The notes: generated by a model from the sequence alone, not told the origin. Positions 3,649-56,373 are shown, numbered from the stretch's first letter. The stretch: 64,000 bases of DNA from Mesorhizobium koreense (GCF_031656215.1 NZ_CP134228.1:558001-622000), one strand, 5' to 3'. Numbers and translations: made by a program.

Positions 3649-4560
3649 GTGGACGAGTTCAGGGAGATGGCGATCGAGCGTCTGCGCACGCTTGCCCGAC
3701 AAGGCGCGCCGGTCGCTGTCGGCGGCAACGCCGTCCTCGTCGGGCTCGCCGGTCGCGGCATACAGGCTTCCCGGTCGCCGATCATGCACGAGCGCGAGGG
3801 TGCGCGGCTCGGAATCCCCTTCCGATATGTGCTGATCGATTTCGACACGCTCGGCCTGAAGGATTCCGGCATCGCCGCGGTGGTTCGCGCTGCGGCGGAA
3901 TTGGGTTTCGCCGGTCTGAACATAACACATCCCTTCAAGCAGACCGTGATCCCGGCGCTGAACGAACTCTCGCCGGAGGCCGAATCGATCGGTGCGGTGA
4001 ATACTGTGGTGATACGGGACGGGCGATGCGTCGGCCACAATACCGATAGCTGGGGTTTCGCGGAGAGCCTGCGGCAGGCCCGGCCAGCGCTTCCCATCGA
4101 GCGCGTCGTGCAGTTCGGCGCCGGCGGGGCAGGTGCCGCGGTCGCGCACGCACTCGACGGTCTCGGCGTCGGCGAACTCGCCATCGTCGACCAGTCGCCG
4201 GAACGCGCCGAGGCGCTGGCCACCCGGCTCGGGCAACGCTCGAGCCGTATCTTCAAGGCGTCGCAAGCCGTCGAAGAAAAGATCGGATGGGCACAGGGCA
4301 TCGTCAACGCGACGCCGGTAGGGATGGCGAACTATCCGGGCACGCCCTTTTCGACCGGCCTTCTGTCCGCCCGGCACTGGGTAGCTGACATCGTCTACTT
4401 CCCGGAAGACACGGAATTGTTGCGCGCCGCGCGGGAGGTCGGCTGCCGGAGCGTGCCCGGTTCGGGGATGGCGGTCTATCAGGCGGTCCGGGCTTTCGAG
4501 CTGTTCACCGGCGCGCGGCCGGACGTTGCCGCAATGACGGAGCATTTCCGCGCGGCCTGA
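3649..4560 (+). CDS. aroE: shikimate/quinate dehydrogenase (AroE family)
   Basis: A 303-residue NAD(P)-dependent dehydrogenase interconverting shikimate and dehydroshikimate (or quinate and dehydroquinate). The substrate domain carries SRSPIMHE, catalytic K97 in NITHPFKQT and D133 in GHNTDSWGF. The nucleotide domain has GAGGAG at 157-162, then VNATPVGM. The start is GTG at 3649 behind CGGGGAGGG; about 25 residues precede the usual AroE start, and an internal ATG at 3667 is possible. It heads a rightward run with a TRAP importer and a dehydroquinase, so a catabolic role (QuiB-like) is more likely than the biosynthetic AroE. Cofactor preference cannot be read with confidence. Confidence 0.88.
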   Translation: MDEFREMAIERLRTLARQGAPVAVGGNAVLVGLAGRGIQASRSPIMHEREGARLGIPFRYVLIDFDTLGLKDSGIAAVVRAAAELGFAGLNITHPFKQTVIPALNELSPEAESIGAVNTVVIRDGRCVGHNTDSWGFAESLRQARPALPIERVVQFGAGGAGAAVAHALDGLGVGELAIVDQSPERAEALATRLGQRSSRIFKASQAVEEKIGWAQGIVNATPVGMANYPGTPFSTGLLSARHWVADIVYFPEDTELLRAAREVGCRSVPGSGMAVYQAVRAFELFTGARPDVAAMTEHFRAA

Positions 4561-4622
4561 GACATCAACGCGCCTCGGCGCATTCACCGGAGCATTGCTC
4601 CAAGCATGGGAGGAAAAAGACA

Positions 4623-5609
4623 ATGAAACTCAACCTGACACGCAGGCAGACGCTCGTAGCAGGCGGCCTTCTGGCAGCTTCGACCGCGCTTCCGGCGCTC
4701 GCGGCGGACAAGCCGAAACTGCGCTTCTCGGCCGTCTTCTCCGACCAGGACATCAGGGCGGAGATGATGAAAAAATTCTCCGACGCCATAAAGGACGATT
4801 TCGACTACGAAGGCTATTATGGCGGCACGCTGTTCAAGCAGGGCACCGAACTGGTCGCGCTGCAGCGCGGCAATCTGGAGATGAGCAATATCGCGCCCCA
4901 GGACTTCTCCAAGCAGATGCCCGAATGGTCGATCGTCACCGCCGCCTATGTCTTCCGCGACACTGATCATCTGAAGAAATTCTTCGCCAGCGAAATGGGC
5001 CAGGACCTCAAGAAGAAGACTGAGGAACAATTGCATGTGCGCGTGCTCGGACCGACCTATTTCGGCGTCCGCCAGGTTGGACTGAAGCCCGACAAGAAGA
5101 TCGATAAGCCCGCCGACATGGCCGGTATCAAGCTTCGCATGCCGGGCGGGGAAGCCTGGCAGTTCCTCGGCAAATCGCTCGGCGCGAACCCTGTCGCGAT
5201 GGCCTATGCGGAGGTCTATACCGGCCTGCAGACGGGTGCGATCGACGGGCAGGACAACCCGCTCCCCAACGTCCAGAACATGAAGTTCTATGAAGTGATG
5301 TCGCAGATCGTGCTGACCTCGCATCTGGTCGGCTTCGACCTTCTGACTGTTTCCAGCAAGACCTGGAACGCCATGTCGCCCGAACTGCAGAAGAAATTCC
5401 AGAAGGCCGCAGACGACGCCATCGACTGGAGCACCGGTCAGCATCTCGCGCGCGAGAAGGAACTGGCTTCCTCCTTCGAGAAAAAGGGCCTGAAGATCTA
5501 CAAGCCGGACGTGGACGCCTTCCGCGAATATGCGCAGAAGATGTATCTCGCCTCGGATCTCGCCAAATCCTGGCCGGCGGGCATGCTCGACAAGATCAAC
5601 GCGCTCTAG
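4623..5609 (+). CDS. dctP: TRAP transporter substrate-binding protein (DctP)
   Basis: A 328-residue periplasmic receptor of a tripartite ATP-independent importer. The N-terminus has a twin-arginine-like signal (NLTRRQTLVAGG) with likely cleavage after ALA near residue 27. The family core follows, including GIKLRMPGGEAW around residue 175, whose Arg normally salt-bridges a substrate carboxylate, and AYAEVYTGLQTGAIDGQDNP. The ribosome site GGGAGG lies just upstream. With DctQ and DctM downstream and dehydrogenase and dehydroquinase genes on both sides, it is inferred to bind quinate, shikimate or a related hydroxy acid. The receptor fold is certain, the ligand is not. Confidence 0.92.
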   Translation: MKLNLTRRQTLVAGGLLAASTALPALAADKPKLRFSAVFSDQDIRAEMMKKFSDAIKDDFDYEGYYGGTLFKQGTELVALQRGNLEMSNIAPQDFSKQMPEWSIVTAAYVFRDTDHLKKFFASEMGQDLKKKTEEQLHVRVLGPTYFGVRQVGLKPDKKIDKPADMAGIKLRMPGGEAWQFLGKSLGANPVAMAYAEVYTGLQTGAIDGQDNPLPNVQNMKFYEVMSQIVLTSHLVGFDLLTVSSKTWNAMSPELQKKFQKAADDAIDWSTGQHLAREKELASSFEKKGLKIYKPDVDAFREYAQKMYLASDLAKSWPAGMLDKINAL

Positions 5610-5725
5610 GGCGATCAGGCCGGAGGGATTAACCTTTAGGGAATCATCCTTTCCGGCCCCCTTCTTCCGGGCCGGCGCTCATTGCCAGTCCGCGCATACC
5701 CTTAATCCGATCGCGGAGAACGACG

Positions 5726-6244
5726 ATGAACCCCCGAGCGCGCCGGTTCGGCTCCCGGCTCTACAAATATGGTGAATTCATCCTCACCGCCATGCTGGCA
5801 GTGATGTTCTTCGCTTTCCTGTTCCAGATTGCCGCTCGCTACCTCTTCGACTGGCCGACGGGATGGACCAACGAACTCTCCGCCATCCTGTGGATCTGGC
5901 TGGTTCTGTGGGGCGCGTCCTTCGTGGTGACCGAGCAGGAGGAAATGCGCTTCGATCTGATCTATGCCGCCGTCGGCCCGAAGGTGCGTCGCGTCATGTT
6001 CCTCGTTTCCGCCGCCGCGCTCCTCGTGCTCTACGGGATGTCCTTTCCGGCGATCGTCAGCTACGTCACTTTCATGAAGGTTGAAAGCAGCGCTTATATG
6101 GGCATCCGCTTCGACTGGCTCTATTCCATCTATATCGTCTTCGTCATCGCCATCATCGTGCGCTATCTGTGGCTCGGCTGGCAGGCCCTCCGGGGCAAGG
6201 CGCCGGAGGAGTTCGATCCCACGCAGGCGGGGTCGGGCCTATGA
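5726..6244 (+). CDS. dctQ: TRAP transporter small permease (DctQ)
   Basis: A 172-residue membrane protein with four predicted helices (roughly residues 15-38, 47-70, 88-110 and 128-152). It carries the DctQ signature FLFQIAARYLF followed by WTNELSAILWIWLVLWGAS. It pairs with the large DctM permease in sodium-coupled import. The start ATG follows CGGAGAACGACG. The last bases overlap the dctM start as ATGA, so the two subunits are translationally coupled. The preceding 116 bases hold no further gene. Confidence 0.92.
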   Translation: MNPRARRFGSRLYKYGEFILTAMLAVMFFAFLFQIAARYLFDWPTGWTNELSAILWIWLVLWGASFVVTEQEEMRFDLIYAAVGPKVRRVMFLVSAAALLVLYGMSFPAIVSYVTFMKVESSAYMGIRFDWLYSIYIVFVIAIIVRYLWLGWQALRGKAPEEFDPTQAGSGL

Positions 6245-7545
6245 GCTTCGCCGACCCCTTCCTCATCACGATCTTCGCGGTCACGGCGCTGGCGCTTCTC
6301 GGCCTGCCGATCGGGCACGCCATGATCGCCGCCTCCATCCTCTATCTGTGGATGTCGGGGCTCGACATGGGCACCGCCGCCGAACAAATCCTCAACGGGA
6401 TGTATTCCAACTACATCATCCTGGCCGTGCCGCTTTTCATCCTCGCCGCCGAACTCATGAATATCGGCTCGATGACCGACCGACTCATGGTGTTCTGCAA
6501 CGCGTTCGTCGGCCGTTTCCGCGGCGGGCTGGCTCAGGTCAATGTGCTGCAGTCGATCATCTTCGCCGGCATGTCCGGATCGGCCATTGCCGACGCGGCC
6601 GGGTCCGGCAAGATCATGCAGAGGCTGATGACGGCGGACGGCAAATATCCGGCAAGCTACGCGGCGGCGCTGACGGCCGCCACAGCCGTCATCGGACCGA
6701 TCATCCCGCCTTCCATCCCGATGATCGTCTATGCGCTCGTCTCCGATGCGTCGATCGGCTATCTGTTCCTAGGTGGCGTCGTGCCCGGCCTGTTGATGGC
6801 AGGCATGCAAATGGTCCTCGTCGCCATCGACGCGCGTCGCAAGGGTTTTCCCGTCGAGCCGCCGACGCCGATCAGGGAACTGCCCGGCATCACCTTGCGT
6901 GCCTTGCCCGCGCTGATGATGCCGGTCGTGCTGCTCGGCGGCATCTATACCGGCGTGACGACGCCGACCGAGGCCGCCGCCGTCGCCGCGGCCTACGCGC
7001 TCGTCATTTCAGTCGTCCTCTACCGCAGCGTCAGCTTCGCCGACTTCTACGAATCGGTCCGGTCGAGCGCGCACACCACCGCCTCTATCGGCATGCTGAT
7101 CGCCGGCGCGCTGGTCTTCAACTATGTCGTGACCGTCGAGAACATCCCGCAGCATCTCAGTGTCCTGCTTGCGAGCTGGCATCTCTCACCGACCACGTTC
7201 CTGATTCTTGTCAACGTGATCCTGCTCTTTCTCGGCTGCCTGCTTGAAGGCACCACGATCATCCTCGTCATCCTGCCCGTCTTCATCCCGACCGCGCACG
7301 CGCTCGGCATCGACCTCGTGCATTTCGGCGTGATGTGCGTGGTCAACATCATGCTCGGTCTCGTGACGCCGCCCTACGGCCTGCTTCTCTTCATCATGGT
7401 GCGCATAGCGGAAGTGCCGATGCGCGACCTAGTGCGCGACGTGCTGCCGTTCATCGGAGTAATGCTGCTGTCGCTCATCATCATCACCTTCTTCCCCGAG
7501 ACGGTGCTGTGGCTGCCGCATCTCTTCGGCTACCAGGGTAGCTGA
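6241..7545 (+). CDS. dctM: TRAP transporter large permease (DctM)
   Basis: A 434-residue, roughly 12-helix membrane subunit that carries the transport pathway of the TRAP system. Family motifs include AAELMNIGSMTDRL, the GMSGSAIADAAGSG hairpin, GPIIPPSIPMIVYA and, late in the protein, LGLVTPPYGLLLF. An ATG earlier in the frame (6169) would bury the start inside dctQ, so the ATG at 6241, overlapping the dctQ stop by four bases, is chosen. It acts with DctP and DctQ, probably for hydroaromatic acids. Confidence 0.93.
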   Translation: MSFADPFLITIFAVTALALLGLPIGHAMIAASILYLWMSGLDMGTAAEQILNGMYSNYIILAVPLFILAAELMNIGSMTDRLMVFCNAFVGRFRGGLAQVNVLQSIIFAGMSGSAIADAAGSGKIMQRLMTADGKYPASYAAALTAATAVIGPIIPPSIPMIVYALVSDASIGYLFLGGVVPGLLMAGMQMVLVAIDARRKGFPVEPPTPIRELPGITLRALPALMMPVVLLGGIYTGVTTPTEAAAVAAAYALVISVVLYRSVSFADFYESVRSSAHTTASIGMLIAGALVFNYVVTVENIPQHLSVLLASWHLSPTTFLILVNVILLFLGCLLEGTTIILVILPVFIPTAHALGIDLVHFGVMCVVNIMLGLVTPPYGLLLFIMVRIAEVPMRDLVRDVLPFIGVMLLSLIIITFFPETVLWLPHLFGYQGS

Positions 7546-7574
7546 GGCGGGGAAGCAACCGGAGTTCCGTGAAA

Positions 7575-8012
7575 ATGGCCAAGCCCATCTTTGTCCTCAA
7601 CGGACCGAACCTGAACCGCCTCGGCACGCGCGAGCCGGAAATATACGGGAAGACCACGCTGGCGGAGATCGAGACGATGTGCCGGGAAGCGGCCGGCGAG
7701 CGGCCGCTCCGGTTCCATCAGTCGAACGCCGAGCACCAGCTTGTCGACTGGGTGCATGAAGCGATCGACGAGGGCGCCGGCATCCTGATCAATCCGGCCG
7801 GCCTGAGCTTCCGCTCGATCCCGCTCCTCGATGCGCTGAAGATGTTCCCCGGCCCGATCATCGAATTCCACATATCGAATATCCACCGGCGCGAAGAAAT
7901 CTATCACCGCTCGCTGGTATCGAGCGTCGCGACCGCCGTGCTCGCGGGGCTGGGGCCGCGCGGTTATCCGATGGCCGTAAAGGCGCTGATCGGGATGGTC
8001 GAGGCCAAATAG
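7575..8012 (+). CDS. aroQ: type II 3-dehydroquinate dehydratase, divergent
   Basis: A 145-residue AroQ homologue that would interconvert dehydroquinate and dehydroshikimate, linking quinate to QuiC. The lid NGPNLNRLGTREPEIYG keeps the catalytic Arg19 and Tyr24. Asn73, Asp86 and the general-acid His99 (EFHISNIH) are also present. Two substrate-site positions differ from well-studied enzymes: the His of the usual THTS motif is Phe79 (SFRS) and the Arg after the AREEF stretch is Tyr110 (REEIY). The SNHEG motif reads SNAEH. It is probably a catabolic or substrate-shifted paralogue. GTG at 7569 is an alternative start; ATG at 7575 gives the family length. Confidence 0.85.
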   Translation: MAKPIFVLNGPNLNRLGTREPEIYGKTTLAEIETMCREAAGERPLRFHQSNAEHQLVDWVHEAIDEGAGILINPAGLSFRSIPLLDALKMFPGPIIEFHISNIHRREEIYHRSLVSSVATAVLAGLGPRGYPMAVKALIGMVEAK

Positions 8013-8138
8013 GGCCACTTAACGCACTCAGAAACAGTTTGAGAAATCGACACACCAAAGCGAAAACGTGTTCGGTAAACATCGGAGCACGGACGAAAGC
8101 CGTCTGCAGCCCGGTCTCACGGATTCTCGAACGGATCG

Positions 8139-10784
<2,646 letters not shown>

Positions 10785-10798
10785 CTAATTCTCACCGT

Positions 10799-10850
10799 GA
10801 TGGGGATGGAGTGCCCCCGATAACCGCCGAAAAGGCTGATGACTCCTGCC
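10799..10850 (+). promoter_or_regulatory. fluoride riboswitch (crcB motif)
   Basis: The sequence fits the compact fluoride aptamer: GGGGATGGAGTGCCCC (10802-10817) makes the first stem and loop, AACCGCC (10821-10827) pairs with GGC of AAAAGGCTGATGACTCC (10831-10847), and the GGAGT/ACTCC segments can form the second helix and pseudoknot. The conserved GATG and CTGATG bases are in place. It lies 80 bases upstream of crcB, the gene most often controlled by this motif; fluoride binding turns expression on. Confidence 0.88.
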
Positions 10851-10929
10851 ATGGCGCGCTGCGTCGGCGGGAGCATTGCCAACCCTCTCCGCAGCCACAA
10901 CCGATGTCGTACGGAGAGGAGAAGTGCGG

Positions 10930-11304
10930 ATGAATTTCCTGATCGTCTTTATGGGCGCCGGCGTGGGTGGCGCGCTGCGCCACGGCGTCAACTCGCTCGG
11001 CATGCGGCTTCTGGGCACCGGCTTTCCGTACGCGACGCTGACGGTCAATATCGTCGGCTCGCTGGCCATGGGCCTGCTCGCCGGCTGGTTCGCGCAGAAA
11101 GGCGCCGCGAGCCAGCATTTCCGGCTGTTCCTAACGACCGGCATCCTTGGCGGCTTCACCACCTTCTCAACCTTCTCACTCGATATCGCAGCCCTTTGGG
11201 AGCGCGGCGCGCTGGCGCTCTGCGCGCTCTATGCGGCGCTTTCCCTCGTCGTGGCGGTCGGCGCACTGTTCTTCGGCCTGTGGGTGATGCGTCAATATTC
11301 CTGA
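10930..11304 (+). CDS. crcB: fluoride exporter CrcB/Fluc
   Basis: A 124-residue, four-helix membrane protein of the Fluc family, a dual-topology dimeric channel that lets fluoride leave the cytoplasm. Signature motifs are GGALRHGVN near the start, VNIVGSLAMG and GGFTTFSTFSLD. An upstream ATG in the same frame (10876) adds 18 unrelated residues. The ATG at 10930, directly after GGAGAGGAGAAG, gives the family length and start. The fluoride riboswitch upstream supports the function. It is followed at 74 bases by a P450 gene on the same strand. Confidence 0.95.
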   Translation: MNFLIVFMGAGVGGALRHGVNSLGMRLLGTGFPYATLTVNIVGSLAMGLLAGWFAQKGAASQHFRLFLTTGILGGFTTFSTFSLDIAALWERGALALCALYAALSLVVAVGALFFGLWVMRQYS

Positions 11305-11378
11305 CGGCATCGCCCGTTTCCGGCCATGGACGCGCCCGGCCGGCGCACCTACATTCGGTGGGAATACGGGAACCCGAC

Positions 11379-12746
11379 ATGGATGCTCACCCCGCTCCCT
11401 TCGTGCCGCCGGCGCCGAAGCCACGCGCGAGCCCGCCCTCGACCCTGCAGATGATCCGTATCGTCTACAGGAATCCGCTCGAATTGTGGGGCGAGCCTTC
11501 CTACAATGAAAAATGGATCTCCGTCTCGTCGATCGGCGGACCGCTTTTGATCGCCAACGATCCGGGCCTCATCCGCCGCGTGCTCGTCGACAATGCGAAA
11601 AACTACAAGATGGCGCGGGTGCGCCAGAAGATTCTGCGGCCGATCCTGCGCGACGGGCTCCTGACGGCGGAGGGCGAAGTCTGGCGTCGCTCGCGCAAGG
11701 CGATGGCGCCCGTCTTCACGCCGCGTCACATCCACGGCTTCGCCCCGCCGATGCTGAAATGCGCCGAGGAATTCGCGAAACGTTACGAAGCGGGTGGCAC
11801 GACCGATCTCGCGCGCGACATGACGATGCTGACCTACGATATCCTCGCCGAGACACTGTTTTCAGGAGAGATCGCGGGAGAATCCGGCAGTTTCGCCAAA
11901 CAGGTCGACCGGCTGTTCGAGACGATGGGACGGGTCGACCCGCTCGACCTTCTCGGCGCGCCCGACTGGCTGCCGCGCATCACGCGCCTGCTCGGGCGCA
12001 ACTCGCTTGCCTTCTTCCGCCGCATCGTCGCCGAGACGATGGAAATGCGCCGGCAAAGGATTGCGCGCTATCCGGACGGAACGCCCGAGGATTTCCTTAC
12101 CTTGCTCTTGCGGGCGGAAGGCCCCGACGGGCTGACGCGCGCCGAGATCGAGGACAACATCATCACCTTCATCGGCGCCGGCCACGAGACCACGGCGCGC
12201 GCGCTCGGCTGGATGCTTTATTGCCTCGCCGAGAGCCCGTGGGAGCGCGAGCCGATCGAGAAAGAAGTGGATGCCGTGATGGCAAGCGGAACAGGTCCGG
12301 CCGAGTGGATTGAGAAGATGCCGCTGACGCGCGCCGCCTTCGAGGAGGCGCTGAGGCTTTATCCGCCAGCGCCCTCGATCAATCGCGAGGCGGTGGAGGA
12401 CGATACCTATCAGGACCTCGTCATCCCGAAGGGTACGCAGGTCCTGGTCATGCCATGGACGATCCATCGCCACAGGGCGCTATGGAGCGACCCCGAGGCC
12501 TTCATCCCTGCGCGTTTCGCGCCCGGCGCGCGCGAGAAGATCGACCGCTTCCAGTACCTGCCCTTCGGCGCAGGTCCGCGCGTCTGCATCGGCGCGAGCT
12601 TCGCCATGCAGGAGGCGATGATCGCGCTCGTCGTGCTGATGTCACGCTACCGCTTCGATACGGTGGCGGAAACGAAACCATGGCCGGTGCAGAAGCTGAC
12701 GACACAGCCGCAGGGCGGCCTGCCGATGCGGGTCACGCGGCGGTAG
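11379..12746 (+). CDS. cytochrome P450
   Basis: A 455-residue soluble P450 monooxygenase. The I-helix carries FIGAGHETTARALGW (oxygen activation), the K-helix EALRLYPP (ExxR), and the haem loop FGAGPRVCIGASFAMQE with the Cys thiolate. There is no N-terminal membrane anchor and no fused reductase, so separate electron donors are needed. The ATG at 11379 (MDAHPAPF) gives normal P450 length; the same frame is open back to 10839 but only across crcB. Substrate unknown. It converges with the lactonase gene of the sugar operon and may be cotranscribed with crcB, though nothing links them functionally. Confidence 0.93.
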   Translation: MDAHPAPFVPPAPKPRASPPSTLQMIRIVYRNPLELWGEPSYNEKWISVSSIGGPLLIANDPGLIRRVLVDNAKNYKMARVRQKILRPILRDGLLTAEGEVWRRSRKAMAPVFTPRHIHGFAPPMLKCAEEFAKRYEAGGTTDLARDMTMLTYDILAETLFSGEIAGESGSFAKQVDRLFETMGRVDPLDLLGAPDWLPRITRLLGRNSLAFFRRIVAETMEMRRQRIARYPDGTPEDFLTLLLRAEGPDGLTRAEIEDNIITFIGAGHETTARALGWMLYCLAESPWEREPIEKEVDAVMASGTGPAEWIEKMPLTRAAFEEALRLYPPAPSINREAVEDDTYQDLVIPKGTQVLVMPWTIHRHRALWSDPEAFIPARFAPGAREKIDRFQYLPFGAGPRVCIGASFAMQEAMIALVVLMSRYRFDTVAETKPWPVQKLTTQPQGGLPMRVTRR

Positions 12747-12765
12747 GCCTGTCCTTCACTGCCTC

Positions 12766-13680
12766 TCAGAAGGTCTTCGCCCCGTTGATCGGCAGCCGCA
12801 CGCCGTAAAGCGAGGTGGTGCCGCAAATGTAGAGATAGTTGCGCTTGTCGCCGCCGAAGCAGACATTCGCCACCACTTCCGGCACATGGATCTTGCCGAT
12901 CAGCGTGCCGTCCGGATGATAGCAATGGACACCGTCGAAGGCGCTGGTCCAGATACGGCCCTCCGTGTCGAGGCGGAAGCCGTCGAACAGGCCGTTCGTG
13001 CATTCGGCGAAGACCTCGCCGCCCGACAGCTTGCCGTTCGCACCGACCTTGAAACGGCGGATATGAGCCGGCCCGTTCTCGACATGGGTGCGGCCGGTAT
13101 CGACGACGTAGAGCAGCTTTTCGTCCGGCGAGAAGGCCAGCCCGTTCGGCTTGACGAAATCGTCCGTCATTTTCGCGACTTCACCGCTGTTCGGATCGAC
13201 GCGATAGACGTGGCTGCCGCCCTGTTCGGATTCGGATTTGTGGCCTTCGTAATCCGAATCGATGCCGTAGGTCGGATCGGAGAACCAGATGCTGCCGTCG
13301 GATTTCACAATAACGTCGTTCGGGCTGTTCAGTCGCTTGCCATTATAGCGGTCGGCGACCGTCGTCACCGTGCCGTCGAACTCGGTGCGCGAGACCCGGC
13401 GCGCGCCGTGCTCGCACGACACCAGCCGGCCCATGCGGTCGACCGTGTTGCCGTTTGAATAGTTGGACGGATGCCTGAAGACGCTGACCGAGCCGTCGCA
13501 TTCGTCATAGCGCAGCATGCGGTTGTTCGGGTTGTCTGACCAGACTAGGTAACGTCCGGCAGGGAAATAGGCGGGGCCTTCCGCCCAGCGGCAGCCGGTG
13601 AAGAGCTTGTCGAGATGCGCGGTCGGGATGAACAGCCCGTTGAAGCGCTTGTCGAGGATTTCAAAAGGATTTTCCGGCAA
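12766..13680 (-). CDS. SMP-30/gluconolactonase family lactonase
   Basis: A 304-residue six-bladed beta-propeller of the SMP-30/LRE family, metal-dependent lactonases that open sugar lactones. Visible motifs are CRWAEGPAYFP (metal Glu), NRLSP-like RLNSPNDVIVKSDGSIWFSD (metal Asn), FVKPNGLAFSPDE and NGLFDGFRLDTEGRIW (metal Asp region). No ATG fits: the best start is TTG at 13680, seven bases after GGGAGGA. The frame is open far upstream but that is the shadow of the permease gene. As the last gene of a sugar ABC operon it probably hydrolyses the lactone formed from the imported sugar. Confidence 0.88.
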   Translation of the reverse strand: MPENPFEILDKRFNGLFIPTAHLDKLFTGCRWAEGPAYFPAGRYLVWSDNPNNRMLRYDECDGSVSVFRHPSNYSNGNTVDRMGRLVSCEHGARRVSRTEFDGTVTTVADRYNGKRLNSPNDVIVKSDGSIWFSDPTYGIDSDYEGHKSESEQGGSHVYRVDPNSGEVAKMTDDFVKPNGLAFSPDEKLLYVVDTGRTHVENGPAHIRRFKVGANGKLSGGEVFAECTNGLFDGFRLDTEGRIWTSAFDGVHCYHPDGTLIGKIHVPEVVANVCFGGDKRNYLYICGTTSLYGVRLPINGAKTF

Positions 13681-13709
13681 TTCTTCCTCCCGGGAGTATC
13701 GAGTGTTTC

Positions 13710-14684
13710 TCAGCGGCTCGCCGGTGCCCGTCCGTAGAGCAGCAGCATGATGACGATGACGATGCCATAGATGACCTGGCGGCCGGCTTCGGGAATTTGC
13801 ATCACCGAGAGGATGGACTGCAAGAGCGTGATGAGGATCGCGCCGGCGACCGTACCGAGATAGGAGCCACGCCCGCCGAGAATGGAGGTGCCCCCGAGCA
13901 CTACGGCGGCGATCGCCGGCAGCAGGTAGACGTCGCCCATCGATTGGGCCGCCTTGGAGGAATAACCGGCTAGGAGCACGCCGCCGAATGCCGCCAGCCC
14001 TCCGGCAATGGCGAAGGCGATGACGAGGATGCGGCGCGTGTCGACGCCGGAGAGGTAGGCGGCGCGCTCGCTGTTGCCGATGCCGTAGACGGCACGGCCG
14101 AAGGTCGTACGCGTCAGGAGGAACACCGCGCCGGCGCCGACTACCACCCAGACGAGCACGGCGTTGGGTACGCCGGGAACGAGAAAGCCGGTGGCGATAT
14201 AGCGCATCGCTTCCGTCGCCTCGTCCTGCGGCGAGAAGCCGCCCGTATAGACCACCATCAGCCCTTGCGCGACGGCGTTGGTGGCAAGCGTGATGATCAT
14301 CGCGGGAATGCGCAGATAGGCAACGCCGATACCGTTCACGATGCCGATCGCCACCCCGCAGAGAATGCCGAAAGGTATGGCAAGCGCGACGCCGGCCGGT
14401 CCGTAGGCGGCCGCTGCGCAGGACATCATCGCGCCGGTAGTGATCGTCCACGGAGCCGAAAGGTCGATCTGGCCGAGCAGGATGACCAGCATGGCGCCTG
14501 TCGCGATCACGCCGAGGAAGGAGGCGACCTTCAACTGCAGGAGAAGATAATCGAGATGCAGGAAGTTCGACGAATAGATGCTTCCCACCAGAAGCAGGAG
14601 CACAATGCAGCCGAACGCCGTGGCCACGGCGGGATCGATGCGCCGCCACAACCCCTGCCTGCCCGTTGAGGAGATTTCGCTCAT
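13710..14684 (-). CDS. sugar ABC transporter permease (RbsC/YtfT type), second copy
   Basis: A 324-residue inner-membrane permease of the CUT2 (ribose/galactofuranose) class with about nine to ten helices. The family signature is AAVVLGGTSILGGRGSYLGTVAG near residue 265; GQIDLSAPW sits where RbsC proteins have GGIDLSVG. The ATG at 14684 overlaps the stop of the first permease as ATGA, so it is chosen over a start 32 codons upstream. Together the two permeases make a heterodimeric channel, as in YtfT/YjfF. Confidence 0.9.
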   Translation of the reverse strand: MSEISSTGRQGLWRRIDPAVATAFGCIVLLLLVGSIYSSNFLHLDYLLLQLKVASFLGVIATGAMLVILLGQIDLSAPWTITTGAMMSCAAAAYGPAGVALAIPFGILCGVAIGIVNGIGVAYLRIPAMIITLATNAVAQGLMVVYTGGFSPQDEATEAMRYIATGFLVPGVPNAVLVWVVVGAGAVFLLTRTTFGRAVYGIGNSERAAYLSGVDTRRILVIAFAIAGGLAAFGGVLLAGYSSKAAQSMGDVYLLPAIAAVVLGGTSILGGRGSYLGTVAGAILITLLQSILSVMQIPEAGRQVIYGIVIVIMLLLYGRAPASR

Positions 14685-15657
14685 GTGAACCAGTCCAGCT
14701 TGTTGCGGACGCGAAGCAGCGCAAACGCGCCGAGGCTGACGGCGATCAGGAGGACGACCCCCTGGAACAGCGGCTGCCACAGCGGATCGAGGTCGAAGAC
14801 GAAGAGAAGATCGCCGATCGCGCGGAAGGCGAGTGCGCCGAACACCGCGCCGATGGCGCTGCCGGTGCCGCCATAGAGCGAGATGCCGCCGAGCACGACC
14901 GCGGCAATGGAAAAGAGCGTATAGGCGTTGCCGCTCGCTAGCGCCGCCTCGCCCGTATAGGTGAAGAAAGTCAGGAACAGTCCGCCGATACCGGCAAGCA
15001 GGCCGGCCAGCGTATAGGTCAGGAACTTGGCGCGGCGGATCGGCATCGCCGACATGTAGGCCGCGGCTTCCGACGAGCCTGTGGCGTAGGCGGCACGGCC
15101 CATCACCGAGCGGCTGAACGGCACCCAGACGAGGAGGACGACCACCACAAGCACCACAAGGCTCACCGGGACCACGCCCCAGATCTTACCGGTGAGGAAA
15201 TCGGCGAGATCCTCGTTGACGCTTCCGCCGGGAAAGGGCCGCAACAGGAGAGCGATGCCGTAATAGACGGCGCCGGTGGCGATGGTCGTCACGATCGGCT
15301 GCAGCCGTCCGTAGATGACGATCAGGCCGTTGACCGCGCCGCACGCCAGCCCCGCGAGCAGGACGCCGACGATGCCGAGCGTCGTCTCGAGCGGCGTGCC
15401 GACCACGATCCACGAGGCGAGGCAATTGGTCAGGATGAAGATCATGCCGACGGAAAGGTCGATGCCGGCGGTGATGACCACAAGCGCCTGCGCCATGGCG
15501 ACGAAGGCGAGCAGCACGCCTTTGTTCGCAGCCGTCTGCACGACATTGGCCGTGAAGCCGGCCGGATGGTTGGAAACATAGATCGTGAACATCACCACGA
15601 AGGTGGCGAAGGCGAAAAGCGTGCCGCGCTGCTCGGCGACCCAGTATTTCCAGTCCT

Positions 15658-50289: not shown

Positions 50290-50317
50290 TTGACTCGGCC
50301 GGCGGCGCAAATATGAT
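50290..50317 (+). promoter_or_regulatory. metE promoter
   Basis: TTGACT (50290-50295), 16 bases, TATGAT (50312-50317). This would start RNA near 50324, right at the beginning of the cobalamin aptamer. Confidence 0.65.
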
Positions 50318-50510
50318 GGGCGTGCCAAGGTTCCTCCGGGTCAATCATCGTCCGGAGGCTAAGAGGGAAGCCGGTAACCCGCACGGAAGGCCGGCGCTGC
50401 CCCCGCAACTGTAGGCGGCGAGCCCAGCCCATTCATGTCACTGAGGCCGAACGGCTTCGGGAAGACGGGCCGAGGCGATGACCCGCGAGCCAGGAGACCT
50501 GCCGTGGCGC
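50318..50510 (+). promoter_or_regulatory. cobalamin riboswitch of metE
   Basis: The leader has the ordered elements of the B12 aptamer: TCCTCCGGG paired with TCCGGAGG (about 50331-50358), GGGAAGCCGGT, the core GCCGGCGCTGCCCCCGCAAC followed by TGTA (from 50390), and the B12 box AGCCAGGAGACCTGCC (50488-50503). It precedes metE by about 105 bases. In metE leaders, cobalamin binding represses this B12-independent enzyme so that MetH is used when the vitamin is available. Confidence 0.95.
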
Positions 50511-50615
50511 AAACAACGTCCACGGGCGGGGTGTCCGATGGCTGCGGTGTCTGTGGCCTCAGGGCCTGGTTCGCCGACATTCATCGCCACGCCGCCCCAG
50601 TTATCGGGGTATGGC

Positions 50616-52991
50616 ATGTCTATCGATCTGAAAGTTCCTGTCGCAACGCTTGGCTTTCCGCGGATTGGCCGCAGGCGTGAGCTCAAATTCGCATTGGAAT
50701 CCTACTGGTCCGACAAATCCTCTGCCGATGGCCTCCTCGCAATGGCGAAGAAGCTCCGTGCCGAAAACTGGATCGAGCAACGCGACCGGGGCGTGACGAA
50801 GATCCCGTCCAACGATTTCTCGCTTTACGACCACGTCCTCGACACGGCGGTCATGGTCGGCACGGTGCCGTCACGCTTCGGCTGGAAGGAAGGCCCGGTA
50901 TCGCTCGACACCTACTTTGCCATGGCGCGCGGCAGTGAAGGCGAAGCCGGAGGATGCGGCCATCCTGGCCACTTACATGGCGCTACCGCGCTGGAAATGA
51001 CAAAATGGTTCGACACCAATTACCACTATATGGTGCCGGAACTCTCCGACGATCAGGCGTTCGCGCTTTCTTCGACAAAGCCCGTGGACGAATTCCTCGA
51101 GGCGAAGGCGCTCGGTGTCCATACACGACCCGTCATCATCGGCCCCGTCACCTTCCTCAAACTGGCGAAATCGACGGCGGAAGGCTTCAATCCACTGGCC
51201 CTGCTGCCGAAGTTGATTCCCGTCTATGCGCAACTCCTCAGGAGGCTGGCCAGGGCCGGCGCCGATTGGGTGCAGATAGACGAGCCGGCGCTGGTGCTCG
51301 ACCTGATCCCGAACGAACAGGAAGCCTTCCGATTCGCCTATGGCAGGCTGGCCAAGGCCGCACCGGAACTGAAGATCATGCTTGCCACCTATTTCGGTGC
51401 CCTTGGAGACAATCTCGATACGGCGCTTTCGCTGCCCGTGGCGGGGCTGCACGTCGATCTCGTGCGCGCGGCCGAACAGTTGGAAGCGGTCGGCCGGCTC
51501 GCACGCAAGGAGATGGTGCTGTCGCTGGGTTTGATCGACGGCCGTAATGTGTGGCGTGCGAACCTGCCAGCGATGCTTGAGAAGATTCGGCCGATTGTCG
51601 CCGGCTGGCCGCCGGAGCGCATCGAGATCGCCCCGTCCTGCTCGCTCCTGCATGTGCCAATCGACCTCGAGCTGGAGACGGCGCTGGACGCGGACGTCAA
51701 ATCCTGGCTCGCTTTCGCCGTCCAGAAGGCCGACGAGCTGGTTGTCCTGTCGCGTGCACTCGCCGACGGGAAAAATGTCGTCGCGTCGCAACTGGGCGCC
51801 TCGGCCAGGGCCGCCGCCGCAAGGGCGGCATCTCTCAAGGTGCATGATCCGCTGGTCGAGGGCCGTATCGCGGCAATCACGGGGGACATGAGGCGCAGGC
51901 AAAGCGCATTCGTTGAACGTGCCGGAAAGCAGGACAAGCGACTGGGCCTTCCCCACTTCCCCACCACCACGATCGGTTCCTTTCCGCAGACACCGGGGGT
52001 TCGCAAGGCGCGTGCAGCGCATGCCAGGGGCGAACTGAGTTTCGTCGACTACGAATCCTTCCTGAAGAAAGAGACAGCCGCGGCGATCCGCTGGCAGGAG
52101 GGCCTCGGCCTGGACGTACTCGTCCATGGCGAATTCGAGCGCAACGACATGGTGCAATATTTCGGCGAGCAACTGTCCGGCTTCGCCTTCACCAGGCACG
52201 CCTGGGTGCAGAGCTACGGCTCCCGTTATGTGCGTCCGCCGATCATCTTCGGTGACGTCTCGCGCCCGAATCCCATGACGGTGCGTTGGTGGCGGCATGC
52301 CCAGTCGCTGACGGCGAAACCGGTGAAGGGAATGCTGACCGGTCCAGTGACGATCCTGAATTGGTCTTTCGTCCGTGACGACATCGCCCGTAGCGCCGTA
52401 TGCGAACAGATCGCTCTGGCCATCCGCGACGAGGTTTCCGATCTTGAAAAGGCGGGTGCCCGCATCATCCAGATCGATGAGGCCGCCTTGCGTGAGGGGT
52501 TGCCCCTGCGCAAGTCCGATTGGGCATCCTATCTCGAATGGGCGGTCGGATGCTTTCGCCTGGCGTCCACAGGTGTGGACGACGCAACGCAGATCCACAC
52601 CCATATGTGCTACTCCGAGTTCAACGATATTATCGATGCGATCGCGGCCATGGATGCCGACGTCATCTCCATCGAGACATCGCGGTCGCGCATGGAACTA
52701 CTCGATGCGTTCCGGAACTATCGCTATCCGAACGAGATCGGCCCGGGCGTCTATGATATCCACTCGCCCCGCGTTCCGCCGGTCGAGGAAATGCTCGACC
52801 TGCTGATCCTTGCCCGCCATCGGCTTTCCGACAGACAGCTCTGGGTCAACCCTGACTGCGGGTTGAAGACGCGCAAATGGGAAGAAGTGCGCCCGGCACT
52901 TCTCAATATGGTGGAAGCAGCAAGACAATTGAGAACACAAGCCAAATCGCCGACCGATGCACAGCGGGGAGAACGGAAGATCCATGCCTGA
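50616..52991 (+). CDS. metE: cobalamin-independent methionine synthase
   Basis: A 791-residue enzyme that moves the methyl group of 5-methyl-tetrahydropteroyltri-glutamate to homocysteine. The N-terminal barrel opens TLGFPRIGRRRELKFALESY; the C-terminal catalytic barrel opens LPHFPTTTIGSFPQTP. The zinc ligands are visible: H663 and C665 in HTHMCYSEFNDI, Glu in ISIETSRSR (about 687) and Cys in WVNPDCGLKTRKW (about 748). A Gly/His/Cys-rich stretch (SEGEAGGCGHPGHLHGA, residues about 106-122) replaces the short loop before ALEMTKWFDTNYHY. The start is ATG at 50616, since an ATG five bases earlier is out of frame. The stop overlaps the next start by eight bases. Confidence 0.96.
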   Translation: MSIDLKVPVATLGFPRIGRRRELKFALESYWSDKSSADGLLAMAKKLRAENWIEQRDRGVTKIPSNDFSLYDHVLDTAVMVGTVPSRFGWKEGPVSLDTYFAMARGSEGEAGGCGHPGHLHGATALEMTKWFDTNYHYMVPELSDDQAFALSSTKPVDEFLEAKALGVHTRPVIIGPVTFLKLAKSTAEGFNPLALLPKLIPVYAQLLRRLARAGADWVQIDEPALVLDLIPNEQEAFRFAYGRLAKAAPELKIMLATYFGALGDNLDTALSLPVAGLHVDLVRAAEQLEAVGRLARKEMVLSLGLIDGRNVWRANLPAMLEKIRPIVAGWPPERIEIAPSCSLLHVPIDLELETALDADVKSWLAFAVQKADELVVLSRALADGKNVVASQLGASARAAAARAASLKVHDPLVEGRIAAITGDMRRRQSAFVERAGKQDKRLGLPHFPTTTIGSFPQTPGVRKARAAHARGELSFVDYESFLKKETAAAIRWQEGLGLDVLVHGEFERNDMVQYFGEQLSGFAFTRHAWVQSYGSRYVRPPIIFGDVSRPNPMTVRWWRHAQSLTAKPVKGMLTGPVTILNWSFVRDDIARSAVCEQIALAIRDEVSDLEKAGARIIQIDEAALREGLPLRKSDWASYLEWAVGCFRLASTGVDDATQIHTHMCYSEFNDIIDAIAAMDADVISIETSRSRMELLDAFRNYRYPNEIGPGVYDIHSPRVPPVEEMLDLLILARHRLSDRQLWVNPDCGLKTRKWEEVRPALLNMVEAARQLRTQAKSPTDAQRGERKIHA

Positions 52992-53145: not shown

Positions 53146-53418
53146 TCAGAGATTCCTCGAAGATCGTTGCCAGGCACCTTCGCCCGCGACAGCCACAAGC
53201 AGCATACGCAGGCAGTGAACGTCCGGATGGAAATTCACGCGCCGATCGATCAGTTCGATTTGCTGCCTGGCCGCAGCTTCGATGTCCACGTCAGGCGGCA
53301 ATGACAGCAGCCAGTCGGCGAACACCTCCTCGGGCGGCGGCAGCGGCGATATCCGGGCCATGGTTGCCCGGTCGATCCAGTGGCCGCGCGTAACGAGTTC
53401 TTCGCGACGGCGCCTCAT
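53146..53418 (-). CDS. small protein of unknown function in the Rieske operon
   Basis: A 90-residue protein of no recognised family. It is basic at the start (MRRRREELVTRGHW), has an amphipathic middle (PPPEEVFADWLLSLPPDVDI) and ends EGAWQRSSRNL. Its ATG overlaps the reductase stop as ATGA, so it is translated with the oxygenase operon, which speaks for a real gene. No Cys cluster or membrane helix is present. It may be an accessory or assembly protein, or one involved in substrate use; the sequence alone does not decide. It ends six bases from the converging MetE remnant. Confidence 0.68.
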   Translation of the reverse strand: MRRRREELVTRGHWIDRATMARISPLPPPEEVFADWLLSLPPDVDIEAAARQQIELIDRRVNFHPDVHCLRMLLVAVAGEGAWQRSSRNL

Positions 53419-54527
53419 GCTTCGATCTCGATCGGCGTAAGAGGCCTGGAACAGCAGCAGAGAATATAGCCCTCGGCGATCTCCTCATCGAGAATGCCGC
53501 CATTGTGGCTCATCTCGACCTCGCCGGAGAGCTTCCTCGTCTTGCAGGTGCCGCACAGGCCGAACTCGCAGGCGGCGGAAATGCGCACGCCGGCGCCGCG
53601 TGCGGCCTGAAGCACGGTCTGCCCGGGAAGGCACTGCGCCTCGACGTCGGAGGCGGCGAAACGGATTGCCACTGCCTCCCGGGTCGGAGCTTCCTGCGCA
53701 TCGGCCGACGGTTCGTCCGAAAACGGCGGCGATACCGCCATCGCCGCTGGCCTGCCGAAACTCTCCTCATGATAATGGGCCATATCGAAGCCCGCGGTTT
53801 CCAGCATGTCGCGCACGGAACGCATGAAGGGCTCCGGCCCGCAACAGAAGATCTCCCGGTCCGGAAAATCGGCGACCAGCAGCGGCAGCAGTCTGTCGTC
53901 GATGCGGCCGCGGTGACCGAAGGACTTTTCGTTTCCCGAACGCTCCTCGACCAGGAAGTCGAGTGACAGGCCCGGCATGCGGTTGCCGAGCAGTTCGAGT
54001 TCCCTGCGGAAGATCACATCTTGCGGCCGTCTTGTGCAATTGACGAAGGCGACGTCCGTCCACGGCGCACAGTCGGAGAACCATCGCAGCATCGACATCA
54101 TCGGTGTGATGCCGGAGCCGGCCGAGAGAAAGAGATATTTCGCCGCCGGATGATCATGATGCGAGAAGTCGCCGGCCGGACCATAGGCCTTGACATGATC
54201 GCCGACCCTCAGGTTCTCGAACATCCAGCGCGTGCCGACACTGTCCGGCTGCGCCTTCACCGTCACGGCGACCGAGAAGGGTCGCGACGGAGAGGACGAC
54301 AGCGTGTAGCTGCGCATCAGCGGCTCTTCTCCAAGAGGCAGTTCCAGCGTCACGAACTGGCCGGGCTTGTAGCGGAACCAGGTTTGCGCATCCGAACGGA
54401 AGGCGAAAGTCTTCACTTCCGGCGCCTCGTCGGCGATGCCGATCACCTCCAGCACCTGAAGCCGATCGTCCCACGGCGTCATCTCGTCTAGATGGCGATA
54501 AAGGGAAAGCTCTGTCATGGCGTTCAT
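53415..54527 (-). CDS. flavin/2Fe-2S oxidoreductase partner of a Rieske oxygenase (GbcB-like)
   Basis: A 370-residue electron-transfer protein. The FAD domain has RSYTLSSSPS (about residue 90) and the NAD domain GSGITPMMSMLRW (about 140), then CCGPEPFMR (about 250). A linker of about 45 residues leads to a C-terminal plant-type ferredoxin with CEFGLCGTCKTRKLSG, then CCCSRP. This order (reductase then ferredoxin) is the class IA-like partner of Rieske oxygenases, as in GbcB of glycine betaine demethylation. The start is ATG at 54527 behind GAGGAGG, 10 bases after the oxygenase stop. It shares the B12-controlled transcript. Confidence 0.92.
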   Translation of the reverse strand: MNAMTELSLYRHLDEMTPWDDRLQVLEVIGIADEAPEVKTFAFRSDAQTWFRYKPGQFVTLELPLGEEPLMRSYTLSSSPSRPFSVAVTVKAQPDSVGTRWMFENLRVGDHVKAYGPAGDFSHHDHPAAKYLFLSAGSGITPMMSMLRWFSDCAPWTDVAFVNCTRRPQDVIFRRELELLGNRMPGLSLDFLVEERSGNEKSFGHRGRIDDRLLPLLVADFPDREIFCCGPEPFMRSVRDMLETAGFDMAHYHEESFGRPAAMAVSPPFSDEPSADAQEAPTREAVAIRFAASDVEAQCLPGQTVLQAARGAGVRISAACEFGLCGTCKTRKLSGEVEMSHNGGILDEEIAEGYILCCCSRPLTPIEIEA

Positions 54528-54537
54528 GTCCGCCTCC

Positions 54538-55785
54538 TCAAGCGACGGAACGAAGTGCCGGCTCCGCGCCCTCGGCCAGCCGCCGCTCCATGAAGCCCGC
54601 ATACCAGTCGACGAACTGGATCACGCCGCCCTCATGCAGTTCCGAATAGGGTCCCGGCTCATAGGCCGGCGACTTGATGCCGAAGGCGTTCTCCTCCACG
54701 ATGCGCCGGTCCTCGTCATTGGTCATCGCCCAGACATGGGTGAGTTCGTCGACGGTGTAATCGACACCCTCGACCGCATCCTTGTGGACCAGCCATTTGG
54801 TCGTCACCGCCGTTTCCGTGGCGCTGATCGGCAGGACACGAAAGGTGGTCGCATGATCGACCAGGACGTGGTTCCACGTCGTCGGATAGTGGTAGAGCAT
54901 GAGCGTGCCGATGCGGTCGGCCGAAACGGCATCGGACAGGTTCCTATGCACGGCCGGCTTGCCGCTCATCGTGTAGGAGACCGCGTTCCTTAGAAGCGGC
55001 GCACGCACGGCCCGATACTGGCCGGCCTCGTCGATGCGGAAGCGTGACGGCAGGCCTGCCCTCTCGCAGTGCGCCCAGTGCTCCAGCATTTCCGGATCGC
55101 TGTCGACGCTCGGCACGCCGGTGATGGTCGGCGCTTCCGGGAAAGTCTTGCAGAGTTCCGGGTGGTTCGCGGCGCAGTGATAGCACTCGCGGTTGTTTTC
55201 CCAGACCAGCTTCCAGTTGCCCTTCTCGATGATCGTCGTCTCGTGCGCGACCTTGGCCTCGGCAAGGTCATGCGGCGCGAAATAGGGCTCCATCAGCGTG
55301 CGGAACGGCGCGAAATCGGCAGGCTCGTCCGCAAGACAGATGAAGATGTAGCCGGCGACGCTCTCGCAGGCGATCGGCTTCATGCCGAAATCCGCCTTGC
55401 AGAAGCCGTCCGCCATCTGGCGCGCGAAAATCAGCGATCCGTCGAGGTCGTAGGTCCACTGATGATAGGGGCAGACCAGCCGTGCTGAACTCCCACGCTC
55501 CGCCGTGCATACCCGGCTGCCGCGATGGCGACAGGTGTTGTGCAGGGCGCGGATGGCGCCGTCGCGCCCGCGCACCACGACAATCGGATAGTCGCCTACC
55601 TGTAAGGTGAAGTAGCTGCCCGGCCTGGCGATCTCGCAATCATGGCCGACGAACAGCCAGTCGCGATACCAGATCAGTTCCATGTCCAGCCGAAAGAATT
55701 CCGGGTCGATGTAGAAGGGTTGTTGAAGGGAAAACCCTTGCCGGCGGCTGCCAAGCAGCCTCGGCATTTCGTTGCGCGCGTCCAT
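54538..55785 (-). CDS. Rieske non-haem iron oxygenase (GbcA/quaternary-amine type)
   Basis: A 415-residue alpha subunit. The Rieske cluster ligands are C85 and H87 (CRHRGSRVC) and C105 and H108 (CPYHQW). The catalytic domain has NWKLVWENNRECYHCAANH with iron His203 and His208. Residue 200 is Glu where classical dioxygenases have the bridging Asp; quaternary-ammonium oxygenases such as CntA use Glu. The LCKTFPEAPT stretch also resembles glycine betaine and stachydrine demethylases. It would release formaldehyde from an N-methyl group, using the reductase downstream. ATG at 55785 behind GCGAGGACGG. A cobalamin riboswitch precedes it. Substrate inferred. Confidence 0.9.
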   Translation of the reverse strand: MDARNEMPRLLGSRRQGFSLQQPFYIDPEFFRLDMELIWYRDWLFVGHDCEIARPGSYFTLQVGDYPIVVVRGRDGAIRALHNTCRHRGSRVCTAERGSSARLVCPYHQWTYDLDGSLIFARQMADGFCKADFGMKPIACESVAGYIFICLADEPADFAPFRTLMEPYFAPHDLAEAKVAHETTIIEKGNWKLVWENNRECYHCAANHPELCKTFPEAPTITGVPSVDSDPEMLEHWAHCERAGLPSRFRIDEAGQYRAVRAPLLRNAVSYTMSGKPAVHRNLSDAVSADRIGTLMLYHYPTTWNHVLVDHATTFRVLPISATETAVTTKWLVHKDAVEGVDYTVDELTHVWAMTNDEDRRIVEENAFGIKSPAYEPGPYSELHEGGVIQFVDWYAGFMERRLAEGAEPALRSVA

Positions 55786-55904
55786 GTCCGTCCTCGCAAT
55801 TGGCACAAGGACTGAACTTGGTGGTGATGGAGGGGTGGATGGCCACGGGCACGACCGCCCGGAACGCTCCGCCTCTTGACCGCCCACCGCGATCAGTCGG
55901 TTTC

Positions 55905-56095
55905 AACATGTTCCAGGCTGGTTTCCGGACTCCGGAGCTGGCCTTGTCAGGCCTTCCCGACGCCTTCCCGGATCATTCGGATCCAGTGGCATTCGTCGGG
56001 GTTTTTCGCTCCGCTACCGTTGCGGGGGCAGCGCCGGCATCAACCGGCTTCCCAATTCTCCCTCCGGCCACAAGCCGGAGAGCACCTCGAACAAA
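55905..56095 (-). promoter_or_regulatory. cobalamin riboswitch of the Rieske oxygenase operon
   Basis: Read on the minus strand, the region has TCTCCGGCTTGTGGCCGGAG (from 56080), GGGAAGCCGGTTGATGCCGG continuing CGCTGCCCCCGCAACGGTAG (about 56050-56013), a variable arm, and the B12 box AGTCCGGAAACCAGCC (55931-55916). These are the same ordered elements as in the metE leader. It ends about 120 bases before the oxygenase start. The box differs at a few positions from the common form (CCGGAAACCAGCC in place of CAGGAGACCTGCC) but pairing positions are kept. Cobalamin is expected to switch the operon off. Confidence 0.9.
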
Positions 56096-56373
56096 TCCAT
56101 CACATCATGGAACGGCCTGGTGCAAGGTCGTGAAAGCGACACGCGCCGGGTGCGAAGGCGACAATCATATTCTCAGTCACGGGCGAGAGCACCGAGATCG
56201 CCATGATCTTGTTTCGTCCTCCTCGTTTCCCGGAGTGCAAGTTAATTCCCGGCCATTGGAATCGAGGCTGCTTTCTATCGCTCGGAAACGGATCGACCAG
56301 GCGCAGTCTCGCTCGACCCTCGGGCAAGAAGCCAATACGCTATATCGACCGTCCTGGCGGAAGGGGTCGGAGA
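56096..56373. other. intergenic region upstream of the Rieske riboswitch
   Basis: These 278 bases separate the oxygenase leader from the 3' end of the GGDEF-EAL gene, both leftward. The operon promoter should lie just upstream of 56100. A 34-codon minus-strand frame (ATG at 56204, MAISVLSPVTENMIVAFAPG, stop at 56100) ends exactly where the aptamer begins and has GAGGAGG 13 bases before its ATG; its coding status is doubtful. Nothing else was seen. Confidence 0.45.

Follow-up and report, generated by a model that had tools for sequence, protein, structure and literature searches.

A cobalamin riboswitch precedes a GbcAB-like Rieske oxygenase operon in Mesorhizobium: a probable B12-independent counterpart of corrinoid betaine demethylation

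In the metE/metH and nrdAB/nrdJ pairs, the gene for the B12-independent enzyme lies behind a B12 riboswitch and the B12-dependent counterpart is encoded in the same genome. Here we describe a similar arrangement in Mesorhizobium koreense, within a stretch of 64,000 nucleotides (NZ_CP134228.1, 558001-622000; hereafter the window), in which a cobalamin riboswitch precedes the genes for a GbcA-like Rieske oxygenase, a GbcB-like reductase and a small protein of 90 residues. The proposed B12-dependent counterpart is the corrinoid betaine demethylation system MtgBCDE, for which B, C, D and E homologues are encoded in the genome of the window. The case differs from metE/metH and nrdAB/nrdJ in that an oxygen-dependent oxygenase is set against a multi-component catabolic corrinoid methyltransferase, and in that the products differ, formaldehyde for the oxygenase and methyl-tetrahydrofolate (methyl-H4F) or methionine for the corrinoid route. 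We consider it probable that the operon provides an oxygen-dependent, B12-free isozyme of MtgBCD-type betaine demethylation, repressed by cobalamin.

Glycine betaine is an abundant osmolyte of soil, roots and sea. In Ruegeria pomeroyi, it is demethylated by a corrinoid system consisting of MtgB (pfam06253), MtgC and MtgD, the same proteins with MtgE also yield methionine, and mtg genes are also present in Sinorhizobium meliloti (PMC12478193). Unlike the oxygenase, MtgBCDE carries out corrinoid chemistry without oxygen, and its genes are dispersed in the genome of the window. GbcAB of Pseudomonas and Chromohalobacter shares with the pair described here the two-component Rieske layout and the signs of Group V, and is the best NCBIfam match of both subunits. 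Unlike GbcAB, the pair in the window scores below the equivalog cut-offs, stands behind a cobalamin riboswitch as its predicted control element, and is not located among betaine genes in the window. Stc2 of S. meliloti (stachydrine demethylase, PDB 3vca) aligns with the oxygenase over the whole length, and plasmid-borne Stc2-type Rieske copies of Sinorhizobium are about 57% identical to it; in contrast to Stc2, no proline or stachydrine genes were seen near the clade members examined, which were not surveyed systematically.

The features of the operon are as follows (coordinates in the window).

55899-56104, minus strand: cobalamin riboswitch aptamer, full length (RF00174, 110.0 bits, E 1.2e-26, model positions 1-189 of 189)
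55786-55898, minus strand: predicted expression platform, with the GCGGTGGGC motif just 3' of the B12 box, a CAGTCCT block and a GAGGAC Shine-Dalgarno sequence
54538-55785, minus strand: GbcA-like Rieske oxygenase, 415 residues (Ring_hydroxyl_A and Rieske domains; E200, C201-x-x-C204)
53415-54527, minus strand: GbcB-like flavin/2Fe-2S reductase, 370 residues (FAD_binding_6, NAD_binding_1 and Fer2 domains)
53146-53418, minus strand: 90-residue protein of a new small family (4-nucleotide overlap, ATGA, with the gbcB stop; predicted three-helix core)

An earlier note on this DNA, made from the sequence alone, had placed a B12 box and riboswitch core in the minus-strand leader at 55905-56095, followed by a Rieske oxygenase with a Glu bridging residue, a flavin/2Fe-2S reductase and a translationally coupled open reading frame of 90 residues, and all of these elements were recovered. 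The leader matches the entire RF00174 model with a score far above the gathering score of 31.5, and is predicted to bind cobalamin and to change the expression of the operon. Both enzymes were identified by their domain matches, the reductase stop is overlapped by the ATGA of the small frame, and the bridging residue is E200, located in an ECYHC sequence that aligns with ECYHC of CntA.

An oxygenase that backs up the corrinoid enzyme should have the riboswitch in genomes where that enzyme is encoded. We compared orthologues of the oxygenase for the riboswitch and their genomes for the MttB family (PF06253), calling open reading frames in the high-GC DNA by codon-usage scoring and, in the wider set, scoring riboswitches by regular expression with correction by Infernal. 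Among 61 relatives of the first set, 13 orthologues were found, of which the 7 with the riboswitch all had PF06253 in the genome and the 6 without it all lacked PF06253. The wider set, 395 genomes from the same family, gave 119 loci, 80 with both, 29 with neither, 4 with PF06253 only and 6 with the riboswitch only, and the set of named genomes gave 26, 22 and 1 with both, neither and PF06253 only, respectively. After removal of duplicates, 160 orthologues remained, and the two traits agreed for 150 of them (both present in 102, both absent in 48); of the other ten, 4 had PF06253 only and 6 the riboswitch only (Fisher p 3e-29, ancestry being ignored). Riboswitch carriers include Mesorhizobium, Aminobacter, Shinella, Sinorhizobium fredii USDA 205, Labrys and Pannonibacter, and neither trait was found in Agrobacterium and the Rhizobium phaseoli group. 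Eight more genomes, representing further families of the class, comprised 4 with both, 2 with neither and 2 with PF06253 only.

On the oxygenase tree, the traits changed 12 to 14 times. Seven supported independent contrasts were, on average, concordant in 6.2 and opposed in none (sign test, median p 0.031), and the dependent model of Pagel was preferred over the independent one with a likelihood ratio (LR) of 52.3 (p about 1e-10), calculated by our own implementation on a quick oxygenase tree instead of a species tree. The riboswitch was absent from the operon in 48 of the 54 PF06253-negative orthologues, the other six being weakly scoring members of one genus. Since the orthologue-bearing genomes lacking PF06253 retain 1 to 5 cobalamin riboswitches elsewhere, the absence is specific to the oxygenase leader.

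The neighbouring genes point in the same direction. In three relatives (L179, L204 and, of the same genus as the window, L031, positions 4453-14771), riboswitch-nrdAB, riboswitch-gbcAB and a convergent riboswitch-metE are aligned in a row, and nrdB is located near the oxygenase in six additional loci. Both nrdAB and metE are classical examples of B12-independent isozymes, and the oxygenase is therefore found among its functional kind. The earlier note had inferred that the oxygenase is an oxygen-dependent stand-in for a corrinoid reaction of the MttB/MtgB type; this inference is supported by the agreement of riboswitch and PF06253, also after phylogenetic correction, and further by the neighbouring riboswitch-controlled nrdAB and metE. 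Within the window itself, metE is accompanied by its own riboswitch, which was absent from the earlier account of the operon.

50311-50520, plus strand: second cobalamin riboswitch, upstream of metE (RF00174, 128.9 bits)
50616-52991, plus strand: metE, cobalamin-independent methionine synthase (TIGR01371, 1109.9 bits, cut-off 929.95)

The metE gene and the oxygenase operon are convergent. The genome contains only three cobalamin riboswitches in total, these two and a third at 2750115-2750319, of which the strand and position are consistent with control of a 637-residue TonB-receptor-like open reading frame and ATP-binding cassette (ABC) transporter genes (L166). Two other RNA elements of the window are a fluoride riboswitch (RF01734, 10793-10855, plus strand, 56 bits) and the alphaproteobacterial small RNA ar7 (RF02342, 591-730, plus strand, 115.8 bits).

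The B12-dependent counterpart is encoded in the same genome by five PF06253 genes together with homologues of MtgC, MtgD and MtgE. One PF06253 gene (L165) adjoins the gene for an MtgC-like corrinoid protein of 232 residues (domains B12-binding and B12-binding_2), and some of the five have FAD or FMN oxidoreductases and ABC transporters of the peptide type as neighbours. MtgD, at 3780220, is 90% identical to MtgD in the full mtg cluster of a relative, and MtgE, at 3118677, belongs to the betaine-homocysteine S-methyltransferase family (PRK07534, 545 bits). As in roseobacters, the MtgC, MtgD and MtgE homologues are located at separate places of the genome. A full-length MetH, present in most relatives searched alongside, was not found in this genome by PF02607 and PF02574 searches, and therefore the MtgC-like corrinoid protein probably serves methionine synthesis and betaine demethylation alike. 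In several genomes, a DUF1638 protein adjoins MtgC/MtgB (L165, 11216-11827; L170, 3885-4496) and is perhaps an accessory of corrinoid methyltransferases.

A Cys-x-x-Cys pair beside the iron site and a Glu bridge are the sign of Group V Rieske oxygenases, which act on quaternary amines (PMC10952381). The oxygenase carries both, the Glu bridge being as in CntA. E200, C201 and C204 are invariant in the 15 orthologues aligned, and C201/C204 correspond to Cys202/205 of Stc2 and Cys206/209 of CntA. With respect to the substrate, two orthologues without the riboswitch are informative. One, on pTAV3 of Paracoccus versutus (L257, 72% identical), has as neighbours a GlxA-family regulator, glutathione-independent formaldehyde dehydrogenase (fdhA), a BCCT transporter, folD, electron-transfer flavoprotein genes and an FAD oxidoreductase, as judged by annotation or sequence reading. 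The other, of Sphingomonas paucimobilis (L209, 73% identical), is adjoined by open reading frames that resemble folD, a dimethylglycine-dehydrogenase-like protein and folB on sequence reading rather than profile search. This set of genes is the typical company of glycine betaine catabolism, and we therefore take N-demethylation of a betaine as the reaction. Judged from these two neighbourhoods, glycine betaine is the likeliest substrate of the oxygenase, which we do not call a proven GbcA.

Homologues forming another subfamily were found in Rhodobacterales. The homologue of Ruegeria sp. TM1040 (L259) is preceded by RF00174 at 5643-5845 (109.7 bits), and that of Phaeobacter gallaeciensis (L260), 56% identical to the oxygenase, by RF00174 at 5662-5864 (119.3 bits) with a glycine betaine ABC binding protein nearby. 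PDB 3n0q, deposited as a 'putative aromatic-ring hydroxylating dioxygenase' and also 56% identical to the oxygenase, is presumably the TM1040 protein, consistent with the alignment. In loci of the R. phaseoli group (e.g. L221, L224 and L245), no GbcB-like reductase was found adjacent to the oxygenase, and the electron donor must be encoded elsewhere. In Labrys (L199, 4296-4896), the oxygenase operon is separated from a TonB-receptor-like gene by a spacer with two divergent cobalamin riboswitches.

Based on these observations, the following mode of regulation can be proposed. The Rieske monooxygenase and reductase would remove an N-methyl group of glycine betaine, or of a close betaine, with oxygen and NADH, giving formaldehyde. 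When cobalamin is plentiful, the leader would bind it, the downstream hairpin would dock on the aptamer, and the ribosome site would be masked, so that the operon is off and demethylation of what would be the same substrate is left to MtgBCD. When cobalamin is scarce, the operon would be on. The two outputs of MtgC, betaine demethylation and methionine, would each have a B12-free spare, gbcAB and metE, side by side. Of 129 linkers with a riboswitch, 117 contain the motif GCGGYGGGY, represented here by the GCGGTGGGC site, at a distance of 26 +/- 5.5 nucleotides past the B12 box, compared with 1 of 58 loci that have no riboswitch. In class I cobalamin riboswitches the L13 loop docks on L5, and the motif would fit such an L13 loop. 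Most close relatives have the CAGTCCT block opposite the ribosome site GAGGAC.

Several observations weigh against a cobalamin-repressed, B12-free isozyme of MtgBCD. Four family members have PF06253 and no riboswitch, as do two of the six PF06253-bearing genomes outside the order. Six loci of one genus (L098, L136, L137, L144, L146 and L147) have riboswitches of 36-62 bits in the absence of PF06253; these leaders have perhaps been in decay since the partner was lost, the alternative being functional divergence. When tested leader by leader against shuffles, pairing of the CAGTCCT block with the Shine-Dalgarno sequence is mostly not significant. Since its covariation is also weak (swap test, p 0.019), the leaders point weakly to repression at translation, which we infer. 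With regard to the substrate, the best NCBIfam matches of the oxygenase (GbcA, NF058607, 500.7 bits) and the reductase (GbcB, NF058606, 378.1 bits) are under the equivalog cut-offs of 670 and 500, Stc2 scores 496 bits on the same GbcA model, and the five PF06253 paralogues offer several possible substrates. Orthologues in betaine-type loci are likewise under the GbcA cut-off (515.6 and 535.3 bits), and the reductase copy of P. versutus scores 366.9 bits on the GbcB model. As Stc2 and the window protein score alike, the GbcA equivalog model was rejected as a substrate test, and the substrate is not fixed by sequence; on sequence comparison, the clade of the oxygenase is related to GbcA as well as to Stc2.

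The same B12-sparing logic might thus serve another substrate, such as stachydrine (proline betaine), carnitine or the quaternary amine of a different MttB paralogue. The nearly equal scores of Stc2 and the window protein on the GbcA model, the identity to the Stc2-type proteins of Sinorhizobium plasmids, and the five PF06253 genes, some near oxidoreductases and peptide-type transporters, are in its favour. We regard it as rather unlikely, however, because the orthologues of 72-73% identity sit with fdhA, folD, a BCCT transporter and dimethylglycine-dehydrogenase-like genes, not with proline genes, and because the riboswitch is retained in a genome whose only PF06253 gene belongs to the mtg cluster (G017, L170). 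The riboswitch might instead secure the supply for B12 synthesis, betaine demethylation providing, at low B12, the glycine from which 5-aminolevulinate is made and the one-carbon units that go into S-adenosylmethionine (SAM). Alphaproteobacteria do make 5-aminolevulinate from glycine, and the corrin ring needs many SAM methyl groups, but a role in supply does not predict the pairing of riboswitch and PF06253, and was set aside for this reason. Moreover, genomes without PF06253 have cobalamin riboswitches elsewhere and none at the operon, and the operon neighbours are nrdAB and metE, not cob genes, making this explanation very improbable. Finally, lineages with large B12 regulons could retain more riboswitches and more corrinoid enzymes, so that the association would reflect descent or general B12 use; both traits are indeed common to related genomes and the sample is mostly one family. 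Such an origin appears extremely improbable, since within-genus contrasts in g30 and g71 run the same way, the 12-14 changes on the tree give a Pagel LR of 52, and PF06253-negative genomes retain their other cobalamin riboswitches.

The third gene of the operon defines a new small family with the consensus PEExFxxWLLxLPxxxDxxxAARxxIxxIDR. A homologue is encoded directly downstream in 35 of 172 gbcB-bearing loci, and all of these are riboswitch operons (35/134 against 0/38 without the riboswitch; p 6e-5, ancestry being ignored). The three-helix core is predicted with a pLDDT of around 90 or more. The protein has no family match in Pfam or NCBIfam and no PDB fold match at E below 1. Our guess is that it is an accessory of the oxygenase.

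The pairing of riboswitch and oxygenase is reportedly included in the B12-element surveys of 2003, under the names ardX-frdX and without a function. A literature search for ardX and frdX gave nothing relevant, and within the library searched no publication connected gbcAB with a cobalamin riboswitch, which does not prove that none exists. Each piece is known by itself; the assignment of the partner and the genome-by-genome test appear to be new.

On balance, we favour the view that corrinoid betaine demethylase and Rieske betaine monooxygenase form a third general pair of B12-dependent and B12-independent enzymes in Alphaproteobacteria, besides MetH/MetE and NrdJ/NrdAB, that several lineages group the B12-free members (nrdAB, gbcAB and metE) in a riboswitch-controlled 'B12-shortage island', and that the 90-residue protein belongs to this mode as an accessory factor. 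The enzyme that removes the first methyl group sets the fate of the carbon, formaldehyde or methyl-H4F, and the need of cobalt and B12 for growth. The present analysis supplies a likely function and a partner for the oxygenase/reductase pair that follows B12 riboswitches, points to a role of structure 3n0q, and would explain why two routes of betaine demethylation coexist in some genomes. It predicts that rhizobia and some roseobacters shift their betaine chemistry with the supply of B12.

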